Assembly (NCBI RefSeq): GCF_023028225.1
Contig: NZ_CP095482.1
Span: forward strand, 1,736,001 to 1,800,000
Origin: Halorientalis litorea
GTDB lineage: Archaea; Halobacteriota; Halobacteria; Halobacteriales; Haloarculaceae
Length of the DNA stretch: 64,000 nt
Reading direction: 5' to 3'
Both the position numbers and the translations under genes were made by a program. Shown one piece after another: positions 22,774 through 39,326 of this stretch; position 1 is the stretch's first letter, and every line of letters starts with the position of its first letter. The notes beneath the pieces are model-generated. The model saw only the letters and a program-made list of their open reading frames with translations, was not told where the DNA came from and did no database searches.

Positions 22774-23190
22774 TCATTCCTCGTCCTCTCGCTCCCACGC
22801 CCACACCGCGACGCCGCCGTGGATGCCGAGCAACATTCCTATCAGGAGACCGCCGAGCGCGGTGAGCAGCGACAACAGGGCCATCGCCGTCCCGACGATG
22901 CCGACGATAGACGACTCCTCGGGCATCGCCAGCGCGGCGATACCGGACAGCACCATCAACAGCGCGACGACCAGCCCGATGCTCGTGTAGGCACCGCCGA
23001 TGAGCAGCAGGTCACGGGCGTACCCACCGGAGACGTACGTGACCATCAGCCCGCCGAGAATCAGGAGGACGCCGCCGCCGAACGGTCGTCCCCGTCGCCA
23101 CCGGTTGGCACGCGCGAGCCGTCGTCGACTCACGGTCGAAACGGCCGCCAGTAGCCCGTTTCCGTGGCTGTGCGTGTCGCCGTCGCTCAT
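22774..23190 (-). CDS. DUF6114 family membrane protein, copy C
   Basis: A 138-residue membrane protein with about four helices after a basic N-terminus. It has the DUF6114 pattern RRGRPFGGGVLLILGGL at residues ~32-48, a central MVLSGIAAL segment, IVGIVGTAMALLSLLTALGG and the terminal GGLLIGMLLGIHGGVAVWAW. Actinobacteria carry the same family next to DUF6230 genes. Its start overlaps the stop of the DUF6230-PA14 gene by 4 nt, so the pair is probably co-translated. Function unknown; a membrane partner for the secreted protein is the simplest idea. Confidence 0.82.
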   Translation of the reverse strand: MSDGDTHSHGNGLLAAVSTVSRRRLARANRWRRGRPFGGGVLLILGGLMVTYVSGGYARDLLLIGGAYTSIGLVVALLMVLSGIAALAMPEESSIVGIVGTAMALLSLLTALGGLLIGMLLGIHGGVAVWAWEREDEE

Positions 23191-24851
23191 GTGAACTGAT
23201 ACTCGAACGTTCCGTCGTCGTTGGGGTCGTACTGGACGCCGAGTTGGACGCTCGCCAGCGGGACGGAGTCGGCCGCGAGGTAGTGTGACTGGATTTTGAC
23301 TGTCCCGAGTGTCAGCCCGTCCTGCCCCGCCGACGCGTTCAAATCGACCAGCGACCGCGTGGGATCAGCCGGCGACCCGGGACCAGTGGCGACACGGAGT
23401 TGCCGTCTCGAGTCGGGGTCCTGTCGCTCGTCGGCGATGAAACCGTTGAACGTCGAGGTGTCGGCCCGGAGCGACGAGGCCTTGAACAGAAGCTGGTTCG
23501 TGTTGAACGTGTTCCCGCCGTTCAGGCGTATCTGTGCGGTCCCACTGAGCCCGGGAAGCCCGCTCACGTCGATGTCCTTCGTCAGCACGATGTTACTGAA
23601 CTCGACCTGTGACAGTTCGAGGATGAGCGTGGGGTACTGTTCCGAAGTCTGGGTCGACTCACAGGGCAAGTCCGACAGTGCCGACGCCGGAATCTGCTGT
23701 TGCGTATCCGTCCCACCCGTTGGTGGACCCGCCCACGTTACGTCGAGTGACTGGCCACCGATGCCTTGGAAGTAGTCGACCCTGATGCTGTGTTCGCCAC
23801 TTTCCAGACTCGTGAGGCCGAACTCCGTTTCTGCGGCGTGGTTACCGCCATTATCGACCACAAGCTCTTCGTCGACGAACAGTTGACTTCCGTCGTCGGA
23901 CGTGGTCGTGAAGTTGTACGTACCACTGGTCGGGACATCGAGACACTTCCGGAACCGGAGCCCGTAGTTGTTGCTTCTCCTTCTGAGGCTGATGTCGTTG
24001 AGGCTGGTCGTATTACCGACTTCGGCGAGGTTGTACCGACCGAACGACGGCATTCCCTCGATGACGCGCTCGAACGTCCCCGACTCGTAGTACCGGTAGC
24101 TCGGGTCCCTCACTGTGTCGTAGGAGAGGACGGAACTGTCGAGTGAGGTTCTCTGGCTGTTGGTATCGGGCCCGGAGTACTCGGCTAGGAGGGACTGTCC
24201 GCCCGTCCCCTCGAAGTAATCTACTCGGATATCGTATGTTCCTGGTGAGAGAGATATGGTGTCGGATGTCTCGGGGGGAGTCCTCCCGTCAGATTCGTAC
24301 CCGTTCGCATCGACCAAGAGATTTCCGTCGATGTAGAGTTGACTCCCGTCGTCGGAATCGAGGTAGAACGTGTAGGTTCCGCCGTTCTGAATCTCGATCT
24401 CCTGCTCCATCCGGAGGGCGAACTCGTCACCCTTGTTTGCAGGAAGATTATTTATGTTAAGATTAGAGCCCGACCTGACGTAGTTCGAGTCGGCGTAGTT
24501 CGGCATACACGCGAACGTGTCTGGGTTCGTCGTGTCTTGGCCACATCCGCTCGCGCTACTAAATAACCCGGTAGAAACCTCTTGGTGGTAATCTCCCCGG
24601 TAGAGCTCATAGTTCGGTTGCTCGACGTCGACGCTTCGCGAGGCAGGGCCGCTCCCACTCGATGTCGGGGAGACGCCGGGGTGAATGTACACGTCCTGTG
24701 CAGTCACTTGGTTGGCCTCGACGGTGAACCCGCCGACCCCAGCGATCGGATACGCTACGACCGTCCCCAGATACAACGTGCTGAGGACGATGAGTACGAG
24801 TACGCTGTACGCCACCGCAGTCCCCAGTGCGAGCTTCTTCTTGTTGTACAT
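23187..24851 (-). CDS. DUF6230 surface protein with two inserted PA14 domains, copy C
   Basis: A 554-residue membrane-anchored exported protein. A basic start MYNKKK precedes one hydrophobic helix (residues ~8-35), then AGVGGFTVEANQVTAQDVYI opens the DUF6230 domain. At residues ~80-227 and ~252-376 the fold is interrupted by two PA14-like modules, each with YxDSDDGSQL/TSDDGSQL and a closing IRVDYFxGxGGQSL. DUF6230 resumes at ~406 (LILELSQVEFSNIVL) and ends with KIQSHYLAADS and the acidic DPNDDG loop. PA14 modules usually bind carbohydrate. It is first in a pair with the DUF6114 gene. Confidence 0.82.
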   Translation of the reverse strand: MYNKKKLALGTAVAYSVLVLIVLSTLYLGTVVAYPIAGVGGFTVEANQVTAQDVYIHPGVSPTSSGSGPASRSVDVEQPNYELYRGDYHQEVSTGLFSSASGCGQDTTNPDTFACMPNYADSNYVRSGSNLNINNLPANKGDEFALRMEQEIEIQNGGTYTFYLDSDDGSQLYIDGNLLVDANGYESDGRTPPETSDTISLSPGTYDIRVDYFEGTGGQSLLAEYSGPDTNSQRTSLDSSVLSYDTVRDPSYRYYESGTFERVIEGMPSFGRYNLAEVGNTTSLNDISLRRRSNNYGLRFRKCLDVPTSGTYNFTTTSDDGSQLFVDEELVVDNGGNHAAETEFGLTSLESGEHSIRVDYFQGIGGQSLDVTWAGPPTGGTDTQQQIPASALSDLPCESTQTSEQYPTLILELSQVEFSNIVLTKDIDVSGLPGLSGTAQIRLNGGNTFNTNQLLFKASSLRADTSTFNGFIADERQDPDSRRQLRVATGPGSPADPTRSLVDLNASAGQDGLTLGTVKIQSHYLAADSVPLASVQLGVQYDPNDDGTFEYQFT

Positions 24852-24907
24852 GTTAGCTTGTCCCCCCGAGAGTCGGTTCGCCGTCGATGTGTAGACACAC
24901 TGTCTTG

Positions 24908-24920
24908 AAGTATTTTTGTC
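24908..24920 (-). promoter_or_regulatory. TATA-like element of the copy C pair
   Basis: In the 111 bp between copies B and C, the minus strand carries acaaaaatact about 60 bases upstream of the DUF6230-PA14 start. It is the only AT-rich stretch there. It suggests that copy C has its own promoter with a ~35 nt leader. Confidence 0.45.
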
Positions 24921-24962
24921 CCGTTTGCTGGCCGAACAGTCGGTGAGCCGACGCCAGCCCGT

Positions 24963-25466
24963 TCATTGTGCCACCTCGTCCGTCGGTAGGCCGTCTTCCG
25001 TCCTGTCCCGCTGTTCTTCGTCGGTCCACGCGACACAGAGGCTTCCCCCGACGACCCCCAACATCGTTCCGACGAGGAAGCCACCGAGCGTCCCGACGAG
25101 TGACAGCAACGAACAGACCGACCCTGCGACGCCGAACAGCGTCGACCGCACGGGCCGCGTCACGGCACCGATGCCCGAGACGCCGACGAGTACGGCACAG
25201 AGCATCCCGAACGAGGCCCGGCCGCCACTGAGCGTCACCCGCTGGAGTGCGATAACCGTCGGCATGTAGCCGATGACGACTGCACCCAGTATCATCACCA
25301 CACCGCCAGCGACCGGCCGGTGTCGTCGCCACTCCCGGAACCGGTCGCGCCTGTCGGCTACTCTGTCGGTAACCGGTGAGAGTGTACGACTGACCGCCCG
25401 GAGTCGCTCCGCTCCCAGCACACGCGTGGCGAGCGACCGGAGTGTTTCGGCGAGTCGTGACTTCAT
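24963..25466 (-). CDS. DUF6114 family membrane protein, copy B
   Basis: A 167-residue membrane protein. A ~45-residue charged N-terminus is followed by the DUF6114 core: FREWRRHRPVAGGVVMILG, then helices around residues 50-145 with TLFGVAGSVCSLLSLVGTLG and FLVGTMLGVVGGSLCVAWT. The tail is acidic. Relative to copy C the cytoplasmic N-terminus is longer. Its ATG overlaps the stop of the DUF6230 copy B gene by one base (TAATG). This is the copy that most resembles the actinobacterial proteins. Confidence 0.85.
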   Translation of the reverse strand: MKSRLAETLRSLATRVLGAERLRAVSRTLSPVTDRVADRRDRFREWRRHRPVAGGVVMILGAVVIGYMPTVIALQRVTLSGGRASFGMLCAVLVGVSGIGAVTRPVRSTLFGVAGSVCSLLSLVGTLGGFLVGTMLGVVGGSLCVAWTDEEQRDRTEDGLPTDEVAQ

Positions 25467-26140
25467 TATTGGAGTGTCGCTATCGGGTCCCCGTTCGAGT
25501 CGTAGTACTCGACGCCGACGATGAGTCCGTCGAGGGTGAGACTCGCGGTGGTCAGGTAGTGTGTTCTGATGTTTGCGTCGGTAATCGTAATGCCCGCCTC
25601 GTTGGGCCCGGGACCGGTGATGGTGACCTCCTGTGCCGTCGCTGGGTCGATGTTGTCGAGGTCGGACGCGTCGTTTCCTGCTGTCACGTTCAGCTTTCTG
25701 CTCGCGTCGGTCGTCGGCGTCTCGCGTATCTGGAGCCCCCTGAACGTCGACCCGGACGCGTTGAACGACGAGGTCTTCAGGAGCGTCTGGCCCAGTTCTA
25801 CCTGGTTCCCGGCCGGTTGTGTCACGACGAGACGTGCTTCCCCACCCATACCGAGGGGGTCGTCGATACGCTTTGTCAGCCGGAGGTCCGTTATCGTCGC
25901 ACTGTCCAACTCCAAGTGAAGGAGCGGATAGTCCGAAACGCTACTCCCGGTCACTGGACCGCTGTCGGGGTAAATCAGTACGTTTTCCGCCTCGACAGTA
26001 CTGGCCTCGACGGTGAACCCACCGACGCCCCCGATGAGCGCGGCGTTCGCCGCGCCGACGCTCATCATGACCAACAACGTCAGTGCGACGGCTGCCGTAC
26101 ACAACCCGAGAGCCGTTGCGAGCATCCGCTTGCGATACAT
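25466..26140 (-). CDS. DUF6230 surface protein, copy B
   Basis: A 224-residue exported protein, start MYRKRM chosen to match copies A and C, although GTG codons occur three positions upstream. There is one hydrophobic helix (residues ~8-32), then GGVGGFTVEASTVEAENVLIYP. Beta-rich ectodomain blocks follow: LLHLELDSATITDLRLTKRI, LLKTSSFNASGSTFRGLQI and near the end ANIRTHYLTTASLTLDG, closing with DSNGD. It is the minimal form of the domain without insertion. A GGAGAG-like sequence lies about 12 bases before the ATG. Function unknown. Confidence 0.82.
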   Translation of the reverse strand: MYRKRMLATALGLCTAAVALTLLVMMSVGAANAALIGGVGGFTVEASTVEAENVLIYPDSGPVTGSSVSDYPLLHLELDSATITDLRLTKRIDDPLGMGGEARLVVTQPAGNQVELGQTLLKTSSFNASGSTFRGLQIRETPTTDASRKLNVTAGNDASDLDNIDPATAQEVTITGPGPNEAGITITDANIRTHYLTTASLTLDGLIVGVEYYDSNGDPIATLQ

Positions 26141-26351
26141 GCTCACCACTCTCCTCCCTTTCCACGCCCCTCCGGCCGACCGTCGGCCCGTGGAACGCGT
26201 ACCGTAGCGTCGACTCTGTTTGTCCTACCCCGTGGTTTACCGAACAGACAAGTGGCGTTTGCACGCCAGTGCCGCTGTGAAACAGCCACTCGGTCCCCGG
26301 GCGGTGACTGACCTTGGCATAGCGGTTCGTAGCTGACGTTGCAGGACATGG

Positions 26352-27539
26352 CTAGTTCGTTCCCCGTGGATGGTTTCCGGGACAGTTATCCACCGTCTCC
26401 AGATTCGCGGGCGTTTCTCGCCGCTTCGTCCCCGGCGAGAGCGTCAACTCGAAGTCGTTGAGCGTCCACTGCGAGGCTTGGATGTAGTGTGCGTTGATGA
26501 TGAGGTTGGTCACGTCGACCTGTGCACCCAATCCGTCCCCGAGACTCAGCGTTCCGGAGTTTCGCGGCTCACACGTGATTTCGTTGTTGAAGTCAAGGGG
26601 GATTCCGAGCACGGTCCCAGTGATCTGTTCGCCGTACAACTCGGACATGTCGACGGTAATCGCGTTGTCCGACCCCCCTTCGATTGTCCCACTACTCGAC
26701 TTCAGCAGCAGTGAGTACCTCTGTCCACCCGGTGTCTCGAAGTTCTTGCGTGCCGAGAGCCCGTTCGTGTAGTCTGGATTGTCGATTTCGATTCTCCCGA
26801 CTGCGATACCCTCTCCCTGTGCATTTCGCTCGACGGTCGATGTCTCTACGTATCGCGTGTTCTGGGTGATGCCGTTCGTCGAGAAGTCCCCGATACGGAG
26901 TCCAACTCCACCGATACCCTGCTCGACCGGCGGGTTCTGACAGGGGAGCAGAATCGTCGTTCCGGTACTCGGGTTACATCCATTGAAAGTGTATCCTTCG
27001 GCGGCCGGTGCCGTCTGAATCGTCGTCGGAAGCACCGGCCAGAGGAAGTACAGCAGCAACAGTCCGATGCCAACGACGAGCAGTGCGTTCCCGGGATTGC
27101 GCCGAAGCCGCGACCCGAGAGAGTTGGTGCGACTGTCGTCCGTTCTCGGACCCTCTGCTGTCTCGTCTTCGCTCGGCGGACGCCACGCGAAGCAGAGAAC
27201 GCCGCCGACAGTGCCGACTGTCATGCCGACGAACAGGCCCCCGAGCGCGCCGAGGATGGACGCCGTCGAGAGCAGGACGCCAGCCACGCCGAAGAACGTC
27301 GAGTGTTCCGGCCGAAGAAGCACGAAGACGCCGGACAGCGAGATGAGGATGGCGAACACCAATCCGATGAAACTGAACGACCCGCTAAGAAGCGTGACGT
27401 CGACGAGGAGTTGCATCGGAACGTACCCGACTATCATCCCGCCGAGAATCAGGAGGACTGCACCAGCAAACGGGCGCGTCCGCCGCCACTCGGTGAACTC
27501 TCGGTACCGCTCTCGGAGTGTTGTGGTATATCCGTCCAT
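26352..27539 (-). CDS. DUF6114 membrane protein fused to a DUF6230-like ectodomain, copy A
   Basis: A 395-residue protein. Residues 1-120 are a DUF6114 domain (FTEWRRTRPFAGAVLLILGG, TFFGVAGVLLSTASILGALG, VGTVGGVLCFAW). After an acidic linker, an extra helix at ~152-172 (ALLVVGIGLLLLYFLWPVL) leads to a ~220-residue exported beta-rich domain. That domain has GIGGVGLRIGDFSTNGI and, near the end, LIINAHYIQASQWTLNDFEL, which mirrors the HYL signature of the DUF6230 proteins. It starts immediately after the DUF6230 copy A stop. This fusion directly links the two families. Confidence 0.8.
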   Translation of the reverse strand: MDGYTTTLRERYREFTEWRRTRPFAGAVLLILGGMIVGYVPMQLLVDVTLLSGSFSFIGLVFAILISLSGVFVLLRPEHSTFFGVAGVLLSTASILGALGGLFVGMTVGTVGGVLCFAWRPPSEDETAEGPRTDDSRTNSLGSRLRRNPGNALLVVGIGLLLLYFLWPVLPTTIQTAPAAEGYTFNGCNPSTGTTILLPCQNPPVEQGIGGVGLRIGDFSTNGITQNTRYVETSTVERNAQGEGIAVGRIEIDNPDYTNGLSARKNFETPGGQRYSLLLKSSSGTIEGGSDNAITVDMSELYGEQITGTVLGIPLDFNNEITCEPRNSGTLSLGDGLGAQVDVTNLIINAHYIQASQWTLNDFELTLSPGTKRRETPANLETVDNCPGNHPRGTN

Positions 27540-28142
27540 TTAGTTCGGCCCTCCGAATTCGTACCGTCCGTCGTTGTTCGTGTCCCACCAGACATCGGCC
27601 TCAAAGGCGGGGAAGTCGAACGACCGAACAGCTAGGTAGTGGGCCTGTATTTTCACCCCTCCAACGAGGTCCGCCTGTGTCCCGGTCAGAGTGAGCTTCT
27701 CGCTCGGCCTCGTCCCATAACTGTCCTCGACGACGAGGTTCTGGAACTGTGCGAAGTCAGACCGGATGGCACTCGCTTTGACGATGACACCCTCTGCTTG
27801 TAGATTCGCGTCGTTGACTGAGGTGAGTCTGATGTTGACCGTCCCCTTCACCCCCGGTAGGTCGCTGATGTCCTGCTTGATTGCGAGCGTGAAGTCCTCG
27901 ATAGTCACCTGCTGAAACTCGATTATTGCCGCCGGCGTCGTCCCGTTCCGTGATTCCGCTGTCCCCGGATACACGAGCATCTGCTGTGCGTTAATATTGG
28001 ACCCGGACAGAACGAACCCGCCGACACCTGCGACTGGATAGCCCCCCAGTGCTACCCCCGAACTCATGATAATCATGCCGACGACGGCCCAGAGCACCAA
28101 CGCCGTGCCGAGGCCGGCGGCGATTCGGTTTTTATCGTACAT
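27540..28142 (-). CDS. DUF6230 surface protein, copy A
   Basis: A 200-residue exported protein: MYDKNR, one hydrophobic helix (residues ~8-36), then AGVGGFVLSGSNINAQQMLVYPG. The ectodomain contains IIEFQQVTIEDFTLAIKQDI, VIVKASAIRSDFAQFQNLVV and VKIQAHYLAVRSFDFPAF, ending with the acidic loop DTNNDGRYEF. It is probably a type II anchored surface protein. It abuts the next gene with no intergenic base, so the pair is coupled. It is the promoter-proximal gene of the whole cluster. Confidence 0.82.
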   Translation of the reverse strand: MYDKNRIAAGLGTALVLWAVVGMIIMSSGVALGGYPVAGVGGFVLSGSNINAQQMLVYPGTAESRNGTTPAAIIEFQQVTIEDFTLAIKQDISDLPGVKGTVNIRLTSVNDANLQAEGVIVKASAIRSDFAQFQNLVVEDSYGTRPSEKLTLTGTQADLVGGVKIQAHYLAVRSFDFPAFEADVWWDTNNDGRYEFGGPN

Positions 28143-28359: not shown

Positions 28360-29064
28360 TCAAACTGCCAGATACTCGGCGATGGCGTCCTCGTCGGCCA
28401 GCGACTCCGGCCCGACTTCGTCGACGATTTCGCCCCGCTCCATCGCGTAACACCGGTCGGCCATGTCACGGATGACGCCGAGGTTCTGCTCGACGAAGAG
28501 GATGGTCGTCCCGAGTTCCTCGTTGATACCGCGCATGTCGGTGCTTATCTGGTCGACGATGGAGGGCTGGATGCCCTCGCTCGGTTCGTCGAGCAGGAGC
28601 AGGTCCGGATTCGCCACGAGTGCCCGTGCGATGGCGAGCATCTGCTGTTGGCCGCCCGAGAGCGTGCCGGCCTGCTGGTCCGACCGCTCCTCCAGAATCG
28701 GGAAGTAGCCGTATATCTCGTCGTACAGCGTCTCGGTGCTGTCGGCGTTGACCGTCTCGCCCATCTTGATGTTCTGCTCGACGGAGAGTTTCGGGAACAC
28801 GTCACGGCCCTGCGGGATGTAGCCCATCCCCGTCCGGGCGCGTTCGTCGGCACTCGCCGTCGTCACGTCCTGCCCGGCGTAAGTGATGGTTCCGGCAGTC
28901 GGTTCGAGCAGACCGATGACCGTCTTCAGGAGCGTCGTCTTGCCGACGCCGTTTTTCCCCATCACGCCGACGATTTCGCCCTCCGCGACGGAGAGGTCCA
29001 CGTCCCGCAGGATGGGTGTCCGGTCGTACGCCGCGGTCACGTCGTCGAGTTCGAGCAGTGTCAT
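28360..29064 (-). CDS. urtE: urea ABC transporter ATP-binding protein UrtE
   Basis: A 234-residue branched-chain-type ABC ATPase (LivF-like). Walker A GKNGVGKTT is at residues ~36-44, the signature LSGGQQQML near 140, and Walker B LLLLDEPSEGIQP near 160. SEGIQP is typical of UrtE/LivF. The long upstream open frame is the shadow of urtD; the ATG at 29064 overlaps the urtD stop by 4 nt. It powers urea uptake together with UrtD. Assignment to urea rests on the linked urease genes and on UrtA. Confidence 0.88.
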   Translation of the reverse strand: MTLLELDDVTAAYDRTPILRDVDLSVAEGEIVGVMGKNGVGKTTLLKTVIGLLEPTAGTITYAGQDVTTASADERARTGMGYIPQGRDVFPKLSVEQNIKMGETVNADSTETLYDEIYGYFPILEERSDQQAGTLSGGQQQMLAIARALVANPDLLLLDEPSEGIQPSIVDQISTDMRGINEELGTTILFVEQNLGVIRDMADRCYAMERGEIVDEVGPESLADEDAIAEYLAV

Positions 29065-29855
29065 TCGTCTTCCCCCAGGTAGATGCGCTGGACGGCCGGG
29101 TCCGCCTTGATGTCCTCGATGGGTCCCTCGCGGAACACCTCGCCGTTGTGGAGGACGGTCACCTCGTCGGCGATGTCGGCCACGAAGTCCGTGTCGTGTT
29201 CGATGACGACGAAGGCGATGCCCGCCTCCTCGTTGAGTCGGGTGATGCGCTCGGCGATCTCCCGGCGCTCCTCGACGTCCAGTCCGGCCACCGGTTCGTC
29301 GAGCAGGAGCAGGTCCGGGTCCAGTGCCGCCGCCATCCCGATTTCGAGTTGCTGTTGCTGGCCGTGGGAGAGCGCGTTGGCCGCGACGTCCTCGTAGCCG
29401 GTCAGTCCCGCCGTCTCGATGGCCTCTGCGATGCGCTCGCGGCGTTCCCGCCCGCTCGCGGACTGCTGGACCGGCAGGCGGATGTTCTCGCGCACGGTGA
29501 GGTCGCCGTACACCGCCGGGACTTGGAACTTCATGCTGAGGCCCTGTTTCACCCGGTCGTGGGGCGCGAGGTCGGTGAAGTCCGTCCCGTCGTAGTAGAC
29601 GCTCCCGGACGTGGGCATGTGGATGCCGGCGATGAGTTTCATCAGCGTCGACTTGCCAGCCCCGTTGGGTCCGATGAGACAGCGGAGTTCGCCCTCGGAG
29701 ACGGCGAAGTCGACGTCGTCGATGGCGGTGAACCCGCCGAAGTCCTTGCGCAGGCTCTCGGTCTGTAACAGCGTGTCCGTCTGTGGCCCGGTGGCCCTGC
29801 CCGCCGGTGTCTGCCGGACGGCAGGGTCCTCGGCCGTGTCCTCGTCGGTGCTCAC
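29061..29855 (-). CDS. urtD: urea ABC transporter ATP-binding protein UrtD
   Basis: A 264-residue LivG-like ABC ATPase with a ~28-residue polar N-terminal extension. Walker A is GPNGAGKST, the signature LSHGQQQQLEIG (H in place of the usual second G/S), Walker B LLLLDEPVAGLD, and the H-loop VIEHDTDF. UrtD proteins characteristically read LSHGQQQ. It overlaps urtC and urtE by 4 nt each, within one operon. Confidence 0.9.
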   Translation of the reverse strand: MSTDEDTAEDPAVRQTPAGRATGPQTDTLLQTESLRKDFGGFTAIDDVDFAVSEGELRCLIGPNGAGKSTLMKLIAGIHMPTSGSVYYDGTDFTDLAPHDRVKQGLSMKFQVPAVYGDLTVRENIRLPVQQSASGRERRERIAEAIETAGLTGYEDVAANALSHGQQQQLEIGMAAALDPDLLLLDEPVAGLDVEERREIAERITRLNEEAGIAFVVIEHDTDFVADIADEVTVLHNGEVFREGPIEDIKADPAVQRIYLGEDE

Positions 29856-31012
29856 GAGTCACTCACCTCCGGGTCCGCCTCCTCGGCGGGGTCCGGCGCC
29901 GTCGGCCCGCCGCCGAACAGCCGGTACTGGGCGAACACGATGAGGTCCCGCGCTCGCGGGACGATGCCGCCAGGCAACAGCATGATGAACACGACCAGCA
30001 GCGCGCCGCGGATGACGTTCGCCCACAGACTGCCGAGCGAATTCGCCACGAACTGCAGGGCGATGGCCGCGATGACCGGCCCGATGAGCGTCTTCCGGCC
30101 GCCGAGACCGACCCAGATGACCGGCAACGAGGCGGCCACGAGGCCGAACTTCGCGGGCGTGATGTAGAACTGCCACGTCGTGAAGAGGACGCCGGACATC
30201 CCCGCCAGTGCCCCGCCGATGACGAACACGGTCAGTTTCACGCGTTCGGTCCGGTAGCCGAACATCCGCGTGCGCTGTTCGTCCTCGCGCATGGCGACCA
30301 TCACGCGGCCGTAGTCCGAGTTGACCAGCACCCGCAACAGCAGGTAGGTCACGACCAACACCGCCAGCACGAAGTAGAAGAACGAACTGTTGTAACTGGT
30401 GATGACCACCGACGTCTCGCCGACGCCGAGCGCGAGTTGCGGGACGTTCATCCCGTTGAACCCGCCCAGCGCCGCCTCGCCGATGGTCCACTCGTCGCCG
30501 GCGGTCTGGTCCATGAACGTCTTCAGGACGAGCGTCGAGACGAGCGTGATGATGGTCGCGTACACGTCCCGGACGCCGCCGTAGAAGATGAAGTAGCCCA
30601 GCACGGCGGCCATCAGCGCGCCGCCGCCGACGCCGACCAGCAACCCGACCGTCCCGCCCAGCGGCGAGTTGACGTTGATGAGGACGATGCCGAAGACGTA
30701 CCCCGCGACGCCGAAGAAGACCGACTGGCCGAAACTGAGGATGCCGCCGTACCCCCAGACGACCGCGAGCGACAGCGCGAGGAAGCCGTAGGCCAGAAAC
30801 GACGACAGTGTGCGCGTCGAGACGAGTATCGACTTGATGGCCCCCGGCGCGAACGGGTACGCCGCCAGCAACCCGACGGCGACGACGAAGCCGAGCCAGA
30901 AGCCCCGGGAGTTGCCGAGCGTGTTCGGCCCCTCGAGGCGGTTGCGAATCCGGGCTATCGGGCCGCCGATGCCCTCGGAACCGCCGCCGTCTCCGGTGGT
31001 CTCTGCCGCCAT
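29852..31012 (-). CDS. urtC: urea ABC transporter permease UrtC
   Basis: A 386-residue LivM-like permease with about ten membrane helices. Family motifs include GYGGILSFGQSVFFGVAGY and a later EDEQRTRMFGYRTERVKL cytoplasmic EAA-type loop contacting the ATPases. The ATG at 31012 leaves one base after the urtB stop; an upstream frame extension of 17 codons is unlikely. The N-terminal ~40 residues are polar and Gly-rich. Confidence 0.9.
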   Translation of the reverse strand: MAAETTGDGGGSEGIGGPIARIRNRLEGPNTLGNSRGFWLGFVVAVGLLAAYPFAPGAIKSILVSTRTLSSFLAYGFLALSLAVVWGYGGILSFGQSVFFGVAGYVFGIVLINVNSPLGGTVGLLVGVGGGALMAAVLGYFIFYGGVRDVYATIITLVSTLVLKTFMDQTAGDEWTIGEAALGGFNGMNVPQLALGVGETSVVITSYNSSFFYFVLAVLVVTYLLLRVLVNSDYGRVMVAMREDEQRTRMFGYRTERVKLTVFVIGGALAGMSGVLFTTWQFYITPAKFGLVAASLPVIWVGLGGRKTLIGPVIAAIALQFVANSLGSLWANVIRGALLVVFIMLLPGGIVPRARDLIVFAQYRLFGGGPTAPDPAEEADPEVSDS

Positions 31013-31013
31013 C

Positions 31014-32027
31014 TCAGGCCTCCTTCCTGCGTTCACGCAGGCGTTCGACGTAGCCGCTGACACCGCCCGGCAGGAATCGGAGGATGAGCAGCGCGGTCAC
31101 GAGCAGTGCGATGCGGCCGAAGAAGGGCGCTTCCGTCAGGTTCGTCACCAGCGCGTTGACGCCACCCAGCAAGCCCCCGGCTGCCGTCGTCCCGACGACG
31201 ACGGACGTGCCGCCGGCGACGACGGCGACGAACGACTCGACGAGGAACGACTCGCCGAACTGCGGCCCGAGGTTCAGGAACGGGGCGTACAGCGCGCCCG
31301 CCAACCCGGCGAGCATCGACCCGACGACGAAGGTGGCGGTGTAGGTCCGCTCGGTGTCGACGCCCATCGCGCGGGCGGTGTCCTCGTCCTGAATCGTGGC
31401 CCGGGCGCGCATCCCGAACTCGGTGCGGGTGAACAGCAGGTAGGTTCCCGCGAGGACGACGACGGCGACACCCGAGAGTACCAGCGGGTACACCGAGTAC
31501 GAGAACGCGCCGCCGGCGTAGTTGATAGCGCCGAACGGCGTGCCGGCCTGCGGTATCGAGGTCCCGAACACGATGCGGACGAGTTGGACCGTGATGAGGC
31601 TCAGCCCCCACGTGGCGACCATCGAGTCCACGAGCCGGTCGTACAGCGGGCTGACCAGCGGCGTCTTCGGGAGTTTCCGGCTCGCGCCGTCGGGCAGGGC
31701 GTTCGCGAGCGGTGGTCGCGTCTTCGCCCACAGCCAGTTCGGGAGCGCCCCGGAGATGACGGCACGCTCGACGACGAGGCCGAACACGCCCGCGACGACG
31801 ACCCCGACGAGAATCGCCACCGGGAGCGGGAGGCTCACGCCCGCCAGAAACGGCGTGCCGGTGGCGCTCAGAAGTGTCGTCGCGTACGCGCCGACGAGGA
31901 TGAACTCCCCGTGGGCGAGGTTGATGACGCCCATGATGCCGAAGATGATGGCCAGTCCCGACGCCGCGAGCACGATGAACGCGAAGTTATCGAGGAACTG
32001 AAAGAGGAGGTTGAGTCCGTTGACCAT
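31014..32027 (-). CDS. urtB: urea ABC transporter permease UrtB
   Basis: A 337-residue LivH-like permease with about eight helices. Typical motifs are GIMGVINLAHGEFILVGAY near residue 30 and the EAA-like loop TRTEFGMRARATIQDEDTARAMGVD near 210. It pairs with UrtC to form the channel. A 187 bp gap with no visible gene separates it from urtA, unusually wide for this operon. The gap may hold a second promoter or a processing site that sets the higher dose of UrtA. Confidence 0.9.
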   Translation of the reverse strand: MVNGLNLLFQFLDNFAFIVLAASGLAIIFGIMGVINLAHGEFILVGAYATTLLSATGTPFLAGVSLPLPVAILVGVVVAGVFGLVVERAVISGALPNWLWAKTRPPLANALPDGASRKLPKTPLVSPLYDRLVDSMVATWGLSLITVQLVRIVFGTSIPQAGTPFGAINYAGGAFSYSVYPLVLSGVAVVVLAGTYLLFTRTEFGMRARATIQDEDTARAMGVDTERTYTATFVVGSMLAGLAGALYAPFLNLGPQFGESFLVESFVAVVAGGTSVVVGTTAAGGLLGGVNALVTNLTEAPFFGRIALLVTALLILRFLPGGVSGYVERLRERRKEA

Positions 32028-32214
32028 CCTACCGTCCCTCCTCGGCAGTCGCCGTGCCGTGACTGTCCGTGCCGTCCCGGCGGTCGGGCGGAGTCGATAC
32101 GTCGGTGTCGTCCCGGGTGGTGTGGGTCATAATCTGTCGTGTCGTGGTCCGGTTCCGTTGTCCCGTCTGGTACTGAAAGCGTGGTCGTGTGCCGGTGCGT
32201 CAGTCGGTCGTGGC

Positions 32215-33537
32215 TCAGCCAGCCACCTCGTAGTAGTCCTGTGGCGTGTACTGGGTCTCCTCGTCTTCTTGGGTGAGGTCACAGCCGACCGTGTCCTTCA
32301 GGAACGTCTCGGGGATGACGCGGTTGTCCACGGCCTCGACGTTGTGCTCGTCGTCGGCCCGCATGACCCACATGTGGTGGTCGACGTGGTGGGTCTCCGG
32401 GACCAGCGCGATCTCCTCGTCCTCGGGGGCCTCGGGCGCGCCGTAGGTGATGCCCGACTCCAGCGCCGCCTTGACCTCCTCCTGGTCGGTCGTGCCCGCC
32501 TGCTCGACCGCCTCCTTGTACATGTAGATGGAGAAGTAGTTGGTCTGGGCCTCCTCGTTGAGGTAGGGTGCGTCGGGGAACATCTCGAAGTAGCGGTCCA
32601 CGAAGCCGCCCTCCTCCGTGTTGCGCTGCGTCGGAATCTCCTCCATGTAGTTGACCCCGGCGTAGATGTCGGCCATCGCCGGCGGGTCGAGGCGACGGTG
32701 CTCGTAGCCCTGTGCCATCGCCGTCGACGTGCCGATGGGCACGTCCAGTCCCGCCGAGGCCTTCTGCCGGTAGAAGGAGGTGTGGTTGTTGCCGACGAGC
32801 ATCGACATCACGAAGTCGGGGTCGGCTTCCTGAATCCGGTTGATGGTCGAGCCGAAACTGGAGTTCGACAGCGGGATGAACTCCTCGCCGATGACGTTGG
32901 CGTCGTTCTCGTTGGCCAGCACGCGCACCCAGTCCGCCGACAACTGACCGAAGTTGTAGTCGGCGGCGATGGTGTAGATGTCCGGGCCGAATTCCTCGCG
33001 GAGGTACGGCAGGACGCTCCCGAGTTGCTGGCGGGCCGTCGGTCCCACCGCGAACACGTTGTGGTCACAGACACCGCCCTCGTACTGGGTGGTGTAGAAG
33101 TACAACTGGTCCTCGCGGTCGATGATGGGGCGGATGGCCTCCCGCGTCGCGGAGGAGTACCCCGCCCACAGCGCGTCCACGTTCTCCTGCTGGATGGCCT
33201 GATTCGTCAGGCGGTTGTACCGGGAGTTGTCCGACCGCGGGTCGGGGTCGAACACCTCGATCTGCTGGCCGTCGATACCGCCGTTGTTGTTTATCTCCTC
33301 GATGGCCAGCAAGGACGCCTTGTGCTTGGGCGTGCCGACCAGCGAGAAGTTGCCCGAGCGGTCCTCCAGAACGCCGAGCGTGATGGTGCCGCCGCCGCTC
33401 GCAGTCCCGCCAGTGCCGCCACCGCCACCGCCATCGCCGCCGCCGTCGCCGCCGCCGCTACACCCTGCGAGTGCCGTCCCAGCGATGACGGCTGCCGAGC
33501 CGAGGAACCCACGGCGAGTCGTCCGGTCGCGGCTCAT
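32215..33537 (-). CDS. urtA: urea ABC transporter substrate-binding lipoprotein UrtA
   Basis: A 440-residue extracellular solute-binding protein. The start has a twin-arginine motif (TTRRGFLG) and a lipobox LAGC at residues ~22-25, so it is a Tat-exported lipoprotein. A glycine-rich linker of about 20 residues leads into a type I periplasmic-binding fold (ITLGVLEDRSGNFSLVGTP; FYTTQYEGGVCDHNVF, which matches FmdD/UrtA). It is first in the operon, divergent from ureB. The substrate could be urea or a short amide; the urease genes next door favour urea. Confidence 0.9.
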   Translation of the reverse strand: MSRDRTTRRGFLGSAAVIAGTALAGCSGGGDGGGDGGGGGGTGGTASGGGTITLGVLEDRSGNFSLVGTPKHKASLLAIEEINNNGGIDGQQIEVFDPDPRSDNSRYNRLTNQAIQQENVDALWAGYSSATREAIRPIIDREDQLYFYTTQYEGGVCDHNVFAVGPTARQQLGSVLPYLREEFGPDIYTIAADYNFGQLSADWVRVLANENDANVIGEEFIPLSNSSFGSTINRIQEADPDFVMSMLVGNNHTSFYRQKASAGLDVPIGTSTAMAQGYEHRRLDPPAMADIYAGVNYMEEIPTQRNTEEGGFVDRYFEMFPDAPYLNEEAQTNYFSIYMYKEAVEQAGTTDQEEVKAALESGITYGAPEAPEDEEIALVPETHHVDHHMWVMRADDEHNVEAVDNRVIPETFLKDTVGCDLTQEDEETQYTPQDYYEVAG

Positions 33538-34022
33538 CGGGCCACCTCCGTAGCCGGGCGTGCGTTCGCGTCGTAACGTTCGGCTTTACTGAACATATCG
33601 ACACCACTGGCGACTAATCCCACACGACTGTGCACTGTTTCGCTCACATCCCTTGTCTTTTGCAGGGAGTAAATAAGGGTTACCAACTGACTGTTATACT
33701 TCCCTTCAGAGAGGCTATTGTGTATAAGGAAAGGTAAGGAGAGCTCGATAAATTTCTGTATTCGAGTAACGGACGCGCAAATATTTGGATGTTCGTAGAA
33801 TACCGACTGGCGACCGTTCCTGGCGGCATCCGTTGCTGGTTGTGCCGCCGCCGCTGGCCCGCTGTCCGTTCGTCCAGTCCCCGGACCGAGAAAACAAATT
33901 TATTGTTCCCACCTCTCCACGTGGTGGTACTTGCTCCGAGCCGAAGCCTTTTGACGCGTCTATCGAAAGAACGACGCACATGTTGGACGGACAGTCGAAA
34001 ACAGTAGCGACGAGGTGGCACC
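33538..34022. promoter_or_regulatory. 485 bp divergent control region between urt and ure operons
   Basis: No gene was seen here. The region is AT-rich for this genome and holds several TATA-like elements (gtgtataagg near 33720, gataaatttc near 33750, gaagccttttgac near 33940). A 15-base imperfect palindrome occurs at 33893-33907. Both operons must be controlled from here, so nitrogen-responsive regulation is likely, but no regulator gene is in the window. Confidence 0.6.
33893..33907. promoter_or_regulatory. operator-like inverted repeat AACAA-N5-TTGTT
   Basis: Five-base arms AACAA and TTGTT flank attta. The site lies ~115 bases before ureB. This spacing and symmetry suit a dimeric regulator, but chance in an AT-rich patch is possible. 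Confidence 0.4.
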
Positions 34023-34409
34023 ATGGCTGAGGACATCGTTCCCGGCGAGGTGGTCACGGGTGACGGCGACGTGACCCTGAACGAGGGCCGGGAGACGACC
34101 GACGTGGTCGTCGGGAACACGGGTGACCGGCCGGTACAGGTCGGGTCGCACTTTCACTTCTTCGAGGCCAACGCGGCTCTGACCTTCGACCGCGAGGCTG
34201 CGATGGGGATGCGGCTGAACGTCCCCGCGGGCACGGCCGTCCGGTTCGAACCCGGCGACGAGCAGACCGTCGAGTTGGTCGCCATCGGCGGGAAGCGCCG
34301 CGCTCACGGGATGAACGGCCTCGTGAACGGCAGCGTCGACGGCGACACCGACGACGCCGTCGAGCGGATGCGGGCGCAGGGCTTCGGCGACACGGGGGGC
34401 GAGGAGTGA
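34023..34409 (+). CDS. ureB: urease subunit beta
   Basis: A 128-residue UreB, the small structural subunit of urease. The characteristic run [13 protein letters not shown] and the motif [23 protein letters not shown] are present. The C-terminal tail is acidic. It is first of seven ure genes in the order B-C-A-G-D-E-F, which differs from the bacterial A-B-C order but is known in haloarchaea. The stop overlaps the ureC start by 4 nt. Confidence 0.95.
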
Positions 34410-36112
34410 CCCGCGACATCGACCGCGAGGCATACGCCGAACTGTACGGCCCCACCGAGGGCGACAAGGTCCGACTCGGCGACACCGAACTGTTCGCCGA
34501 AGTCGAACGGGACTACCGGACCCACGGCGACGAGGCGGTCTTCGGCGGCGGCAAGACTCTCCGCGACGGCCTCGGGATGGCCCCCGGCGTCACGCAGGAG
34601 GAAGGGGCACTGGACTGGGTCATCACGAACGCGACGGTCATCGACCCCGTACTGGGTATCGTCGCCGGCGACATCGGCATCCGGAACGGCGAGATAGTCG
34701 GCGTCGGGAAGGCCGGCAACCCGGACACGATGGACGGCGTCGACATGGTGGTCGGCCCGTCGACGGACGTGTATCCGGCCGAGGGCAAGATAGCCACCGC
34801 GGGCGCGCTGGACATCCACGTCCACTGGAACTCCGCACAACTGCACGAACACGCGCTGGCCGGCGGCATCACGACGATGCTCGGGGGCGGCTACGGCGGC
34901 GGCGCGACCACCTGCACGACCGGCCCGGAGAACGTCAAGCGACACCTGCAGGCCGCCGAGGCGTGGCCGGTCAACGTCGGCTTCTACGCCAAGGGCAACG
35001 CCTCGGACCCGGAACCGCTCCGGGAGCAGATACGGGCGGGGGCCTGCACGCTGAAACTCCACGAGGACTGGGGGTCGATGCCCGCGGCCATCGACACCGC
35101 CCTCGACGTGGCCGAGGACGAGGACGTACAGGTGTGCATGCACACGGACACGCTCAACGAGGCGGGGTTCGTGGAGAACACCTTCGACGCCGTGGACGGC
35201 CGGACGATGCACCTGTTCCACATCGAGGGTGCGGGCGGCGGCCACGCCCCCGACATCATGGAGATGGTCGGCGAACCGAACATGCTCCCCTCGTCGACGA
35301 ACCCCTCGATGCCCTACACCGACAACACGTTCGACGAGCATCTGGACATGGTGATGGTGTGTCACCACCTCAACCCGGACGTGCCCGAGGACGTGGCCTT
35401 CGCCGAGTCCCGCGTCCGGGCCGAGACCATCGCCGCCGAGGACGTCCTCCACGACATGGGGGCCATCTCGATGATGACGACCGACTCCCAAGCGATGGGA
35501 CGGATGGCCGAACTCGTCCCCCGGACGTGGCAGACGGCCTCGCAGATGAAGGCCCAGCGCGGCCCCCTCCCCGAGGACGAGGGGACCGGCGCGGACAACT
35601 TCCGCATCAAACGCTACGTCGCCAAGTACACCGTCAACCCAGCCATCTCGGCTGGCATCGACGACTACGTCGGGACGCTCGAACCCGGGAAACTGGCCGA
35701 CGTGGCACTGTGGGACCCCGCGTTCTTCGGCGTCAAGCCGGCGATGGTGTTCAAGGGCGGGTTCCCCGTCCACTCCGAGATGGGCGAGGCCAACGGGTCG
35801 CTGATGACCTGTGAACCCATCCTCCAGCGCGAACGGGCGGGTGCGGTCGGGAAGGCCAAACACGCCCTCTCGCTCTCGTTCGTCTCCCCGGCGGCCGCCG
35901 AGGCCGACGTGGGCGACCAGTACGGTCTCGACACGCCCGTCGTCCCCGTTGCAGGGACCCGCACGCCCGGCAAGGCGGACATGGTGTACAACGACTACTG
36001 CCCGGACGACATCGACGTGGACCCGGAAACCTTCGAGGTGAAAGTCGACGGTGACCACGTCACCTGTGAACCGGCTTCGGAACTCCCACTCGCACAGCGG
36101 TACATGCTATGA
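34406..36112 (+). CDS. ureC: urease subunit alpha (catalytic)
   Basis: A 568-residue catalytic subunit that hydrolyses urea to ammonia and carbamate at a binuclear nickel site. Visible ligands are HVHW near residue 135, the carbamylated lysine in TLKLHEDWG, histidines in [13 protein letters not shown] and [16 protein letters not shown], and the Asp in TTDSQAMGR. The start is GTG, overlapping ureB by 4 nt. The stop overlaps ureA by 4 nt. Length is normal; nothing essential is missing. Confidence 0.97.
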
Positions 36113-36510
36113 AACTCACACCCAAAGAGCAGGAACGGCTCACGGTCTTCACCGCCGCAGAGGTCGCACGACGCCGCAAGGAGCGCGGCGTCCTGCTGAA
36201 CCATCCCGAAGCGGTCGCCTACATCAGCGACTGGTGCATCGAACGCGCCCGCGAGGGGCAGTCCGTCGCGGAGATACGTTCCGGCGCGTCCCAACTGCTG
36301 GGCCGCGACGACGTGATGGACGGCGTCCCCGCGATGGTCGACATGATACAGGTCGAACCGGTGTTCCCCGACGGGACGAAACTCGTCACCGTCCACGACC
36401 CGATTCGGTCCGACAGCGTCGGCGGGGCCGAGGCCGCAGACGAGGACGCCGCCACCGACGGCGGTGTGGACGCGGGAGCCACGGGGACCGACGACGAGAC
36501 CGAGCCATGA
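36109..36510 (+). CDS. ureA: urease subunit gamma
   Basis: A 133-residue UreA. The fold block [20 protein letters not shown] and [13 protein letters not shown] are diagnostic, as is [19 protein letters not shown] ~30-residue acidic/Ala-rich C-terminal extension (after SDSV) goes beyond the usual ~100 residues and looks like a halophilic tail. Four-base overlaps link it to ureC and ureG. Confidence 0.95.
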
Positions 36511-37130
36511 GCCTCACCCATCGGGACGTGGCGACGGTCGGTATCGGCGGCCCAGTGGGGTCGGGAAAGACCTCGTTGCTGACCGAACTCGTCCCGCGAC
36601 TGCGCGACGCGGGGCTTGACGTGGGCGTCATCGCCAACGACATCCTCACACAGGAGGACGCCGACCGCCTCCGCGAGCGGTTCGCAGGCGTCGTGCCCGC
36701 GGACCTCGTGGCCGGGGTCGAGACGGGGGCGTGTCCACACACGGGTATCCGGGAGGACCCCTCGATGAATCTCCAGCAGATAGACGCGTTCCTCGACTCC
36801 CACCCCGAGTTGGACCTCGTGTTAATCGAGAGCGGTGGCGACAACCTCGCAGCGACGTTCAACCCCGAACTCGCGGACTACTCGCTGTACGTCATCAGCG
36901 TCGCGGAGGGCGACGACATCCCGCGCAAGCGCGGCCCCGGCGTCGTCGACTGTGACCTGCTGGTCGTGAACAAGACCGACCTCGCGCCCCACGTCGGTGC
37001 TGACCTCGACCTGATGGAACGCGACGCCGAGGCCGTCCGCGACGGCCCCGTCGTCTTCACCGACTGTAAGGCCAGCGAGGGCATCGACGAGGTACTCGGC
37101 CACGTCCGGGACGGGGTGCTGTTCGCCTGA
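36507..37130 (+). CDS. ureG: urease accessory GTPase UreG
   Basis: A 207-residue SIMIBI-class GTPase that drives nickel insertion. The P-loop [10 protein letters not shown] is at residues ~14-23, the metal-binding/switch motif GACPHT (CPH in place of the usual CPH/TAI dimer site) near 75, and [11 protein letters not shown] near 110. The G4 motif NKTDLA is at ~155. A longer upstream open frame is ureA's shadow. The stop overlaps the ureD start by one base. Confidence 0.95.
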
Positions 37131-38062
37131 TGGCCGCCGACGGCGAGACGGACGCCGATACCGACCCGCCGGACGCACCCCACCCTGCCTTCGAGGGCTA
37201 CGCGGCCGAACCCGTCCCGCAGGCGGCCGTCGGGTCGCCCGGGAAGGACGGCGTGTTGGAACTGACCTTCGCCGCCACCGAGGGTGGGACGGCACTCGTC
37301 CACGACTACGCGACGGTCCCGTTCCACGTCTCGGGGACGCTGGGCCACGACCCGCACCCCGACGCCGAGACGGTGTTCCTCCAGTCGCCGACGGGCGGCG
37401 TCGCACAGGGTGACCGTCACGACGTGACCATCCGCGCCGAGGCGGACGCCGTCGCCCACGTCTCCACCCAGAGTTCGACCAAGGTGCAGTCGATGGACTG
37501 CAACTACGCCGCCGCCGACGCCACGCTGTCGGTCGGTCCCGGTGCCCACCTCGACTACGTACCCGAGCCGACGATTCTCCACGCCGACGCCCGGTACTGT
37601 CGGGAGACGACGCTCACGCTCGCCCCCGGCGCGACGGCGGTGGTCAGCGACGTAGTGGTGCCGGGCCGTCTCGCCCGCGACGAACGGTTCGAGTTCGAGC
37701 GATACCTCTCGCGGATTCGGGTTGAGGGACCGGACGGCCTGCTGTTCACCGACGCCACGCACCTCACGCCCGCCGACGCGGACCCGACAGCACCGGGCGT
37801 CCTCGGCGAGTTCACCGTCTACGGGACGGCGTTCGTGGTCGCCCCCGAGCGGGACACGGCCGCACTGAGCGACCGGCTACACGCGGCGGTCACCGACGCC
37901 GAGGCCCGCGCCGGTGCGACCGAACTGCCCAATGGTGCCGGCGTCGCCGTGCGCGCGCTCGGTGACCGTGCGGAGACAGTACAGGCCACGCTCCACGCGG
38001 CGTGGGACTGTGCTCGCCGCGACATACTGGACGCGCCCGCACCCTCCGGGAGGAAGCTCTGA
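37130..38062 (+). CDS. ureD: urease accessory protein UreD
   Basis: A 310-residue UreD/UreH-type scaffold for apo-urease activation. The family stretch THVSTQSSTKVQ-like sequence (AHVSTQSSTKVQSMD) lies near residue 110, followed by LDYVPEPTILHADARY. There is an acidic N-terminal extension of about 30 residues. One-base overlaps with ureG and ureE place it firmly within the operon. Confidence 0.93.
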   Translation: MAADGETDADTDPPDAPHPAFEGYAAEPVPQAAVGSPGKDGVLELTFAATEGGTALVHDYATVPFHVSGTLGHDPHPDAETVFLQSPTGGVAQGDRHDVTIRAEADAVAHVSTQSSTKVQSMDCNYAAADATLSVGPGAHLDYVPEPTILHADARYCRETTLTLAPGATAVVSDVVVPGRLARDERFEFERYLSRIRVEGPDGLLFTDATHLTPADADPTAPGVLGEFTVYGTAFVVAPERDTAALSDRLHAAVTDAEARAGATELPNGAGVAVRALGDRAETVQATLHAAWDCARRDILDAPAPSGRKL

Positions 38063-38640
38063 TGCTGGTCGCCGACACCTACCTCGGCCACCGGACGGAC
38101 GACGACGTGGCGGCCCGCCTCGACGGGGCCGACCCGTCCCGCGTCGTCCTCTCGGCGACCGACCGCCGCCGCTCCCGGGTTCGCACCGAGACCGACGACG
38201 GGCGAGACATCGGTATCGTGGTCGCTCGTGACCTCACGGACGGCGATATCCTCGAAACCGAGTCCGGTGCCCTCGTGTTAGTCGACCTCGCGGACATCGA
38301 GGCGGCGATTGTATCCCTCGAAGGAACTGACGTGTCGCCGACGACGGCCCTGCAGGTGGGCCACGCGCTCGGGAACCGCCACCGGGACGTGGCGGTGCGT
38401 GACGACGAGGTGGTCGTCGCTGTCGCGGACTCCCGCGAGCGGACCGAGCGCACCCTCGCGGACCTGTGCCCGGACGGGACTCCGGTCCGCTTCGAGTCCG
38501 TGTCACCGGCACTGTTCGACGGCGGGCCGGACCACCGACACGGGGACGACCACTCTCACGGGCACACGGGGCACGACCACGCCGACGGCAACCACGCTCA
38601 CTCGCACGGGCCGCGCTCGTTGGGGGAGGGCGGCAGATGA
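38062..38640 (+). CDS. ureE: urease nickel chaperone UreE
   Basis: A 192-residue UreE that delivers Ni(II). The N-terminal peptide-binding domain begins MLVADTYLGH. The central metal-binding domain has VGHALGNRHRDVAV (conserved GNRH). The C-terminus holds a histidine-rich stretch (PDHRHGDDHSHGHTG and HADGNHAHSHG) with about a dozen histidines, as in nickel-storing UreE proteins. The start overlaps ureD by one base; the stop overlaps ureF by 4. Confidence 0.95.
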   Translation: MLVADTYLGHRTDDDVAARLDGADPSRVVLSATDRRRSRVRTETDDGRDIGIVVARDLTDGDILETESGALVLVDLADIEAAIVSLEGTDVSPTTALQVGHALGNRHRDVAVRDDEVVVAVADSRERTERTLADLCPDGTPVRFESVSPALFDGGPDHRHGDDHSHGHTGHDHADGNHAHSHGPRSLGEGGR

Positions 38641-39326
38641 CCGACGAAAGTACGTTGGCGGCCTTCCGACTGGCTGACTCTTTCCTCCCGGTGGGGACCT
38701 ACACCGTCTCCTACGGTCTCGAACAGTTCGTACAGGACGAGCGCGTGACCGACGCCGCCGACCTCCGGGCGTTGCTCGCCACGTACCTCCGGCGGCAGGT
38801 CGGACCGGCCGAGTTGGTCGCGCTTCGGGCGGCACACACCGCCGCCACGGCGGGCGACGTGGCCGCCGTCTGCGAGGCGGACCGACGGCTGACCGCCACG
38901 ACGCTCTCCGCGGAGTTCCGCGAGAGTGCCCAGAAGTCGGGTGCGCGCCTGCTCTCGCTCCAGCGTGACCTCCGGGCGGACGACACGCTCGACGCGTACG
39001 CCGCCCGCGTCGACGCGGGCGACGCCCCGGGCAACTACGCCGTCGTGTTGGGACTCGCGACTGCAGTCGCCGGTGTCGAGGAGCGGGTCGCCTGCCTGCT
39101 GTGCTGTCACGGGTTCGTCACCGGACTGCTCGGTGCCGCCCAGCGACTCCTCTCGCTGGGGCACACCGACGCCCAGCGACTCCTCGACGAACTGCGTCCG
39201 GTCAGCGTCGAAGCCGTCGACGCCAGTGCCGACCGCTCGCTCGACGAGATGACGCCGTTCGCGCCGCTGGTCGACGTGCTCTCGGCCGACCACGAGCGCG
39301 CTGACCGGCGGTTGTTCGTGAGCTGA
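38637..39326 (+). CDS. ureF: urease accessory protein UreF
   Basis: A 229-residue all-helical UreF, a partner of UreD and UreG in apoenzyme activation. The motif RLADSFLPVGTYTVSYGLEQ near the N-terminus matches the family (SFPxGxFxxSxGLE type, with TYTVSY). Later LACC-like and LGAAQRLLSLGH blocks are present. It is the last gene of the operon. The next gene, a HAD phosphatase, is 75 bp away and probably separate. Confidence 0.93.
   Translation: MTDESTLAAFRLADSFLPVGTYTVSYGLEQFVQDERVTDAADLRALLATYLRRQVGPAELVALRAAHTAATAGDVAAVCEADRRLTATTLSAEFRESAQKSGARLLSLQRDLRADDTLDAYAARVDAGDAPGNYAVVLGLATAVAGVEERVACLLCCHGFVTGLLGAAQRLLSLGHTDAQRLLDELRPVSVEAVDASADRSLDEMTPFAPLVDVLSADHERADRRLFVS

Follow-up and report, generated by a model that had tools for sequence, protein, structure and literature searches.

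Three DUF6230–DUF6114 gene pairs, all on the minus strand, follow one another at positions 22774–28142 of the window, i.e., the whole stretch of 64,000 nucleotides that was analyzed, which comes from a genome assigned to Halorientalis by its nearest relatives. All six open reading frames (ORFs) of this cluster are intact, and in all three pairs the DUF6230 gene comes first and the DUF6114 gene second (Table 1). We propose that the pairs are three paralogous copies of a surface module that handles hydrophobic molecules, such as long-chain alkanes, fatty acyl chains or other lipids, and we give this proposal an even chance of being correct. The pairing of DUF6230 with DUF6114 and its conservation across domains are real and old, and joint action of the two proteins is well supported. 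For a role of the module in handling alkanes or lipids, published work on Geobacillus and the R2lox context give moderate support. The archaeal set is a new form of this module, which is triplicated, PA14-bearing and partly fused.

The spacing between the two genes of a pair was 0 nt for P6/P5, -1 nt for P4/P3 and -4 nt for P2/P1, confirming the translational coupling that had been read from the sequence in a first-pass annotation. The three consecutive minus-strand units described there were also borne out by the ORFs and by Pfam, with P2 being recognized via a family profile. Five of the six proteins reached the curated cut-offs of Pfam and thus belong to DUF6230 (PF19741) or DUF6114 (PF19609), names that carry no function. 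P6 and P4 scored 31.4 and 28.4 bits, respectively, just over the DUF6230 cut-off of 27.5 bits. The three DUF6114 proteins scored 81.5, 78.9, and 88.2 bits, with a cut-off of 27.9 bits. Given the Pfam E-values and the conserved adjacency of the two genes, a chance origin of the cluster is excluded.

Table 1. Genes and inserted domains of the DUF6230–DUF6114 cluster (window coordinates).
Feature	Description	Coordinates	Strand	Evidence
P6	DUF6230 protein (A subunit), 200 aa; pair 1, first gene	27540..28142	-	Pfam PF19741, E 2.7e-7
P5	DUF6114 + fifth membrane helix + DUF6230-like domain; pair 1, second gene	26352..27539	-	PF19609, E 7e-25
P4	DUF6230 protein, 225 aa; pair 2, first gene	25466..26143	-	Pfam PF19741, E 2.3e-6
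P3	DUF6114 protein, 167 aa; 1-nt overlap with P4	24963..25466	-	Pfam PF19609, E 5.3e-22
P2	DUF6230 protein, 554 aa, with two inserted PA14 domains; pair 3, first gene	23187..24851	-	Split profile matches
P2 insert	Tandem PA14 insert, about residues 81-405	~23637..24611	-	PA14 matches, self-comparison
P1	DUF6114 protein, 138 aa; 4-nt overlap with P2	22774..23190	-	Pfam PF19609, E 8.3e-23

The AlphaFold2 model of P6 (pLDDT 84.5, pTM 0.74) consisted of an N-terminal helix (residues 4–29) and an all-beta domain (residues 43–187) with strands of up to 22 residues, while the junction at residues 29–39 was of very low confidence. At this junction the DUF6230 proteins possess an AxA-like motif and, behind it, the conserved start P-x-x-G-x-G-G-F (AxA-[x]P-x-x-GxGGF). 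The alignment columns of both elements were 85–100% conserved among 39 non-redundant DUF6230 members. Two DUF6230-like proteins of Geobacillus thermoleovorans, P21 and P16, were previously purified as membrane proteins inducible by alkanes and are recovered in the insoluble fraction; N-terminal sequencing of the mature proteins gave AFPLSGVGGFTISADLI and VPISGVGEFXVTFDKL (PMC2676291). Their mature starts, AFPLSGVGGF and VPISGVGEF, coincide with the conserved post-AxA start of the DUF6230 members. Because an AxA-type motif closes the N-terminal helix and the Geobacillus mature proteins start right behind this motif, the helix is probably a cleaved signal peptide rather than the single-helix anchor that the first-pass annotation had assumed. 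Moreover, as these two members are reported to be alkane-inducible membrane proteins, the earlier statement that no function is known was not supported.

The fold of the beta domain was not informative. A Foldseek search of the DUF6230 model against the PDB and viral models returned nothing at an E-value of 0.001. The best row of any kind from VIA-align, which merely re-aligns Foldseek's own hits, had a Z of 3.0 and an rmsd of 3.9 over 104 aligned residues. Lacking a good structural match from either program, the function could not be read from the fold. Nor did any PDB chain match convincingly by sequence.

P2 received no DUF6230 call from Pfam, which reported PA14 twice only (E 1.2e-31). With an extended DUF6230 family profile, P2 was matched in two pieces, profile positions 1–71 (E 1.5e-16) and 61–197 (E 3e-29), which flank the PA14 insert on both sides. 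Thus, the Pfam model missed P2 because two PA14 domains interrupt it. The insert lies behind the first long strand, and its two PA14 copies share 38% identity (E 3e-22). In sister species, DUF6230 proteins carry five-fold PKD arrays. The PA14 domains here and the PKD domains there seem to extend the proteins toward glycans or across the S-layer, and their presence agrees with the earlier suggestion that diverged copies lie side by side as surface variants.

The second gene of the first pair is different from those of the other two. The DUF6114 part of P5 comprises four helices (residues 24–118) and is followed by a fifth membrane helix (residues 149–166) and then by an exported domain. Pfam placed all three proteins in DUF6114, but P5 is not a plain member, given its fifth helix and DUF6230-like exported domain. 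The likeness of this C-terminal domain to DUF6230 escapes the Pfam model. Compared alone with the DUF6230 profile, the domain gave a weak match (38% probability), whereas together with its closest relatives it matched with 96.9% probability, and 40 column shuffles never exceeded 5%. The same DUF6114-helix-domain architecture recurs in another haloarchaeal genus. Judged from its sequence, P5 is a natural fusion of DUF6114 with a diverged DUF6230-like domain, and the joining of both in one chain argues that the parts act together. The AlphaFold2 model of P5 (mean pLDDT 58) was reliable for the helices only, four of which had a pLDDT of ~80–95, and the C-terminal domain was of low confidence. The four-helix bundle resembled many unrelated bundles, the best being a copper storage protein (Z 12.0, rmsd 2.9, 100 aligned), and these matches were given no interpretation.

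Further copies were found in the same genome: a DUF6230–DUF6114 pair at C1:1866k, a lone DUF6230 gene at C1:2672k and, at C1:531k, a fusion of DUF6114 with a multi-helix protein. DUF6230 was present in all eight Halorientalis genomes searched. In haloarchaea as a class, DUF6114 was patchy (10 of 116 genomes, 2 of 46 genera sampled), and it occurred in 30 of 300 Bacilli genomes. A contig scan showed that DUF6230 adjoined DUF6114 in 17 of 20 haloarchaeal loci and in all five Bacilli loci. In a sample drawn around one Bacilli genome, which overlaps with the five by a few loci, adjacency was found in 31 of 32 loci. The haloarchaeal loci without it were extra or fused DUF6114 copies. In haloarchaea DUF6230 mostly preceded DUF6114, whereas Bacilli had it on either side. 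The adjacency is therefore found in haloarchaea and Bacilli alike and is not limited to this genome, and the idea of a functional pair shared across domains was upheld.

In a tree of the concatenated pairs, 13 haloarchaeal pairs formed one clade (support 100/100) separate from Bacilli. A second copy from Natrinema fell among Bacilli, although a single archaeal clade was not rejected (p-AU 0.14). This history would be compatible with a single ancient transfer between the domains, or possibly with two. No relative was found in the viral contigs scanned, and the plasmid scan gave one Natronococcus megaplasmid. A 1.8-Mb Streptomyces plasmid gave no DUF6230 match; the control genomes gave no match either.

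The surroundings of the archaeal pairs vary. In sister Halorientalis (L029, L033, and L034), the DUF6230/DUF6114 cluster follows the genes for ribosomal proteins S12 and S7, and in one contig an EF-2 gene comes after it; all of these genes were named from their translations. In the window's genome, the S7 site holds only the single pair mentioned above, and the triple cluster is ~100 kb off. Upstream of the triple cluster, at positions 28360–39000, are look-alikes of a urea ABC transporter and a urease operon, as read from translations. A function shared with these adjoining urea-transport and urease genes was considered and rejected, because relatives of the pairs are located elsewhere, for instance after ribosomal protein genes in sister species.

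The hydrophobic nature of the presumed ligand is suggested by the Geobacillus work and by gene context. Induction of P21 and P16 was stronger with longer alkane chains, and neither palmitic acid nor triglycerides induced them (PMC2676291), so alkanes, not lipids in general, may be the trigger. In G. kaustophilus, the P21 orthologue GK2770 adjoins GK2771 in an alkane gene cluster, and GK2771 is an R2lox reported as an alkane monooxygenase (PMC10867098). In an independent sample, 24 of 30 DUF6114-positive Bacilli genomes contained an R2lox over the family cut-off, versus 5 of 30 DUF6114-negative ones (Fisher p 1.5e-6), counts that are inflated by relatedness because the positive Bacilli fall into a few lineages. 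Of the 30 positive genomes, 17 had R2lox no more than 10 kb away from DUF6114, with a chance expectation of 0.26, and these 17 apparently represent at least three arrangement types. Besides R2lox, family scans identified genes for aldehyde dehydrogenase, a long-chain acyl-CoA ligase, a GAF-LuxR regulator and a lipase-like hydrolase next to Bacilli pairs.

Similar genes occur in haloarchaea. In Natrinema, an R2lox-like gene lies ~5 kb from the pair in one species and an acyl-CoA ligase gene ~3 kb upstream of the pair in two species. All 10 DUF6114-positive haloarchaeal genomes contained several R2lox-like genes each, versus ~23 of 106 others, although these genes are below the R2lox cut-off and the comparison is confounded by phylogeny. 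The genome of the window has five R2lox-like genes (C1:988k, 1063k, 2019k, 2234k, and 2399k), likewise below the cut-off and none near a pair. Moreover, no alkane or lipid genes were recognized beside the window's pairs when the translations were read by eye, and this lack of recognizable alkane genes among the neighbors weakens the hydrophobic-ligand reading. A Halorientalis species has been reported to degrade hexadecane (PMC8400010).

Compared with the Geobacillus system, the archaeal DUF6230 proteins share the mature N-terminal motif and the size class of P21 and P16, whose G. kaustophilus counterparts are GK2770 and GK3040. In Bacilli loci, both the P21-like and the P16-like proteins adjoin a DUF6114 gene, as the archaeal DUF6230 proteins do here. 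Different from that system, however, the archaeal copies have PA14/PKD modules, three tandem pairs and one DUF6114-DUF6230-like fusion, and no R2lox gene adjoins the pairs in the window's genome.

In the proposed module, the DUF6230 protein would be exported by Sec and its signal helix cut at the AxA motif. The mature all-beta domain would stay at the outer membrane face and bind the hydrophobic ligand. The four-helix membrane bundle of DUF6114 would work with it, either receiving the ligand or inserting this into the membrane. The module may be completed by a second DUF6230-like domain, either fused to DUF6114 as in P5 or as a separate secreted third protein as in many Bacilli, and the PA14 or PKD additions may bind glycans or reach through the S-layer. 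Ligand binding, hand-over to DUF6114 and a role common to the bacterial and archaeal copies are the steps that we infer. Uptake of long-chain alkanes and other very hydrophobic compounds by single-membrane prokaryotes is poorly understood. A broader reading, which we put forward tentatively, is that DUF6230–DUF6114, with the DUF6230-like component where present, could be a machine common to both domains and not described so far, by which such prokaryotes bring external alkanes or lipids into their membrane. It would cover Bacilli and haloarchaea and involve a beta-domain fold without a recognized solved relative, and the PA14/PKD variants of Halorientalis would pick up different hydrophobic substrates. 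The pairing joins two families that had no assigned function into one module present in two domains of life, and the module is tied to alkane use via gene context and published induction data. The archaeal fusions and module-bearing variants make both the pairing and the ligand directly testable.

The PA14 insert, the five-fold PKD arrays of sister species and the exported, beta-rich subunits present in several copies per genome would also suit an adhesive or structural surface assembly, in which DUF6230 forms a layer or fibre anchored by DUF6114, the PA14 and PKD domains are adhesins and the diverged copies are variant subunits. Such an assembly seems unlikely to us, as the Bacilli A subunits examined were without a PA14/PKD-type module and as the clustering with R2lox and the alkane induction would be left unexplained; the lack of a sequence match or a confident fold match to filament proteins points the same way, although it is weak evidence. 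TasA-type biofilm fibre proteins are small, exported and beta-rich, with a cleaved signal, and their small, exported, beta-rich character is common with DUF6230. However, DUF6230 had no PDB sequence match and no confident Foldseek match to connect it to them, a weak result by which a different fold is not proven, and no SipW-like partner was noticed beside the DUF6230–DUF6114 pairs.

Two further explanations were considered. The module could serve envelope stress or membrane repair, such as solvent tolerance; DUF6114 would then do the actual work, and the link to hydrocarbons would be only indirect. This would explain the alkane induction and the membrane location, and it is in line with DUF6114 being found alone or fused to other multi-helix proteins and with the GAF-LuxR regulator beside some Bacilli pairs, which suggests a signal-responsive unit. 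The close clustering with genes for R2lox, aldehyde dehydrogenase and acyl-CoA ligase, however, points to use of the compounds beyond tolerance, which leaves this explanation only a slim chance. Equally improbable in our judgment is that DUF6230, as the Streptomyces "cholesterol esterase" family, is a secreted hydrolase of sterol esters or fatty acid esters that has DUF6114 as its partner in the membrane. SCO5420, which is annotated as a cholesterol esterase and which we take to be a DUF6230 member, was up 37-fold on Tween. The N-termini of P21 and P16 resemble the N-terminal segment of this family, including that of the S. lavendulae cholesterol esterase (PMC2676291), but the Geobacillus authors dismissed an esterase function, as the similarity over the full length was negligible. 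Moreover, different from what is expected of such an enzyme, no Ser, His or Cys was conserved above 65% among the 39 archaeal and Bacilli members, and the best polar columns were a K (90%), absent from P6, and a D/E (92%).

In several Bacilli, the pair is accompanied by a third gene, whose secreted product combines a diverged DUF6230-like domain with a long tail. The Natrinema pair is likewise followed by a gene for a secreted protein, but one without a significant DUF6230 match. The Natrinema protein (L036:5547-6668 and L035:5543-6478) contains long acidic amphipathic repeats, and its matches to apolipoprotein, perilipin and phasin models were below the cut-off (best E 2.7e-6, apolipoprotein-like and far below it), may reflect repeat composition only and were given no weight. 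The Marininema-type third protein (L046:5431-6540, L048:2797-3873, and L076:1602-2915) starts with a signal-peptide look-alike, and its C-terminal end is an HPr-like domain (PF00381, E 1e-12 to 6e-9), although an extracellular PTS-type fold would be unusual. In addition, haloarchaea as well as Bacilli have larger multi-helix proteins to whose C-terminus DUF6114 is fused (L008, L009, L010, and L087-L091), which represents a second architecture. Finally, a GAF-LuxR type regulator gene adjoins Bacilli pairs in divergent orientation (L105:10957-12456, L107:7156-8427, and similar loci; confirmed in two loci), and its product is a candidate alkane-responsive activator.
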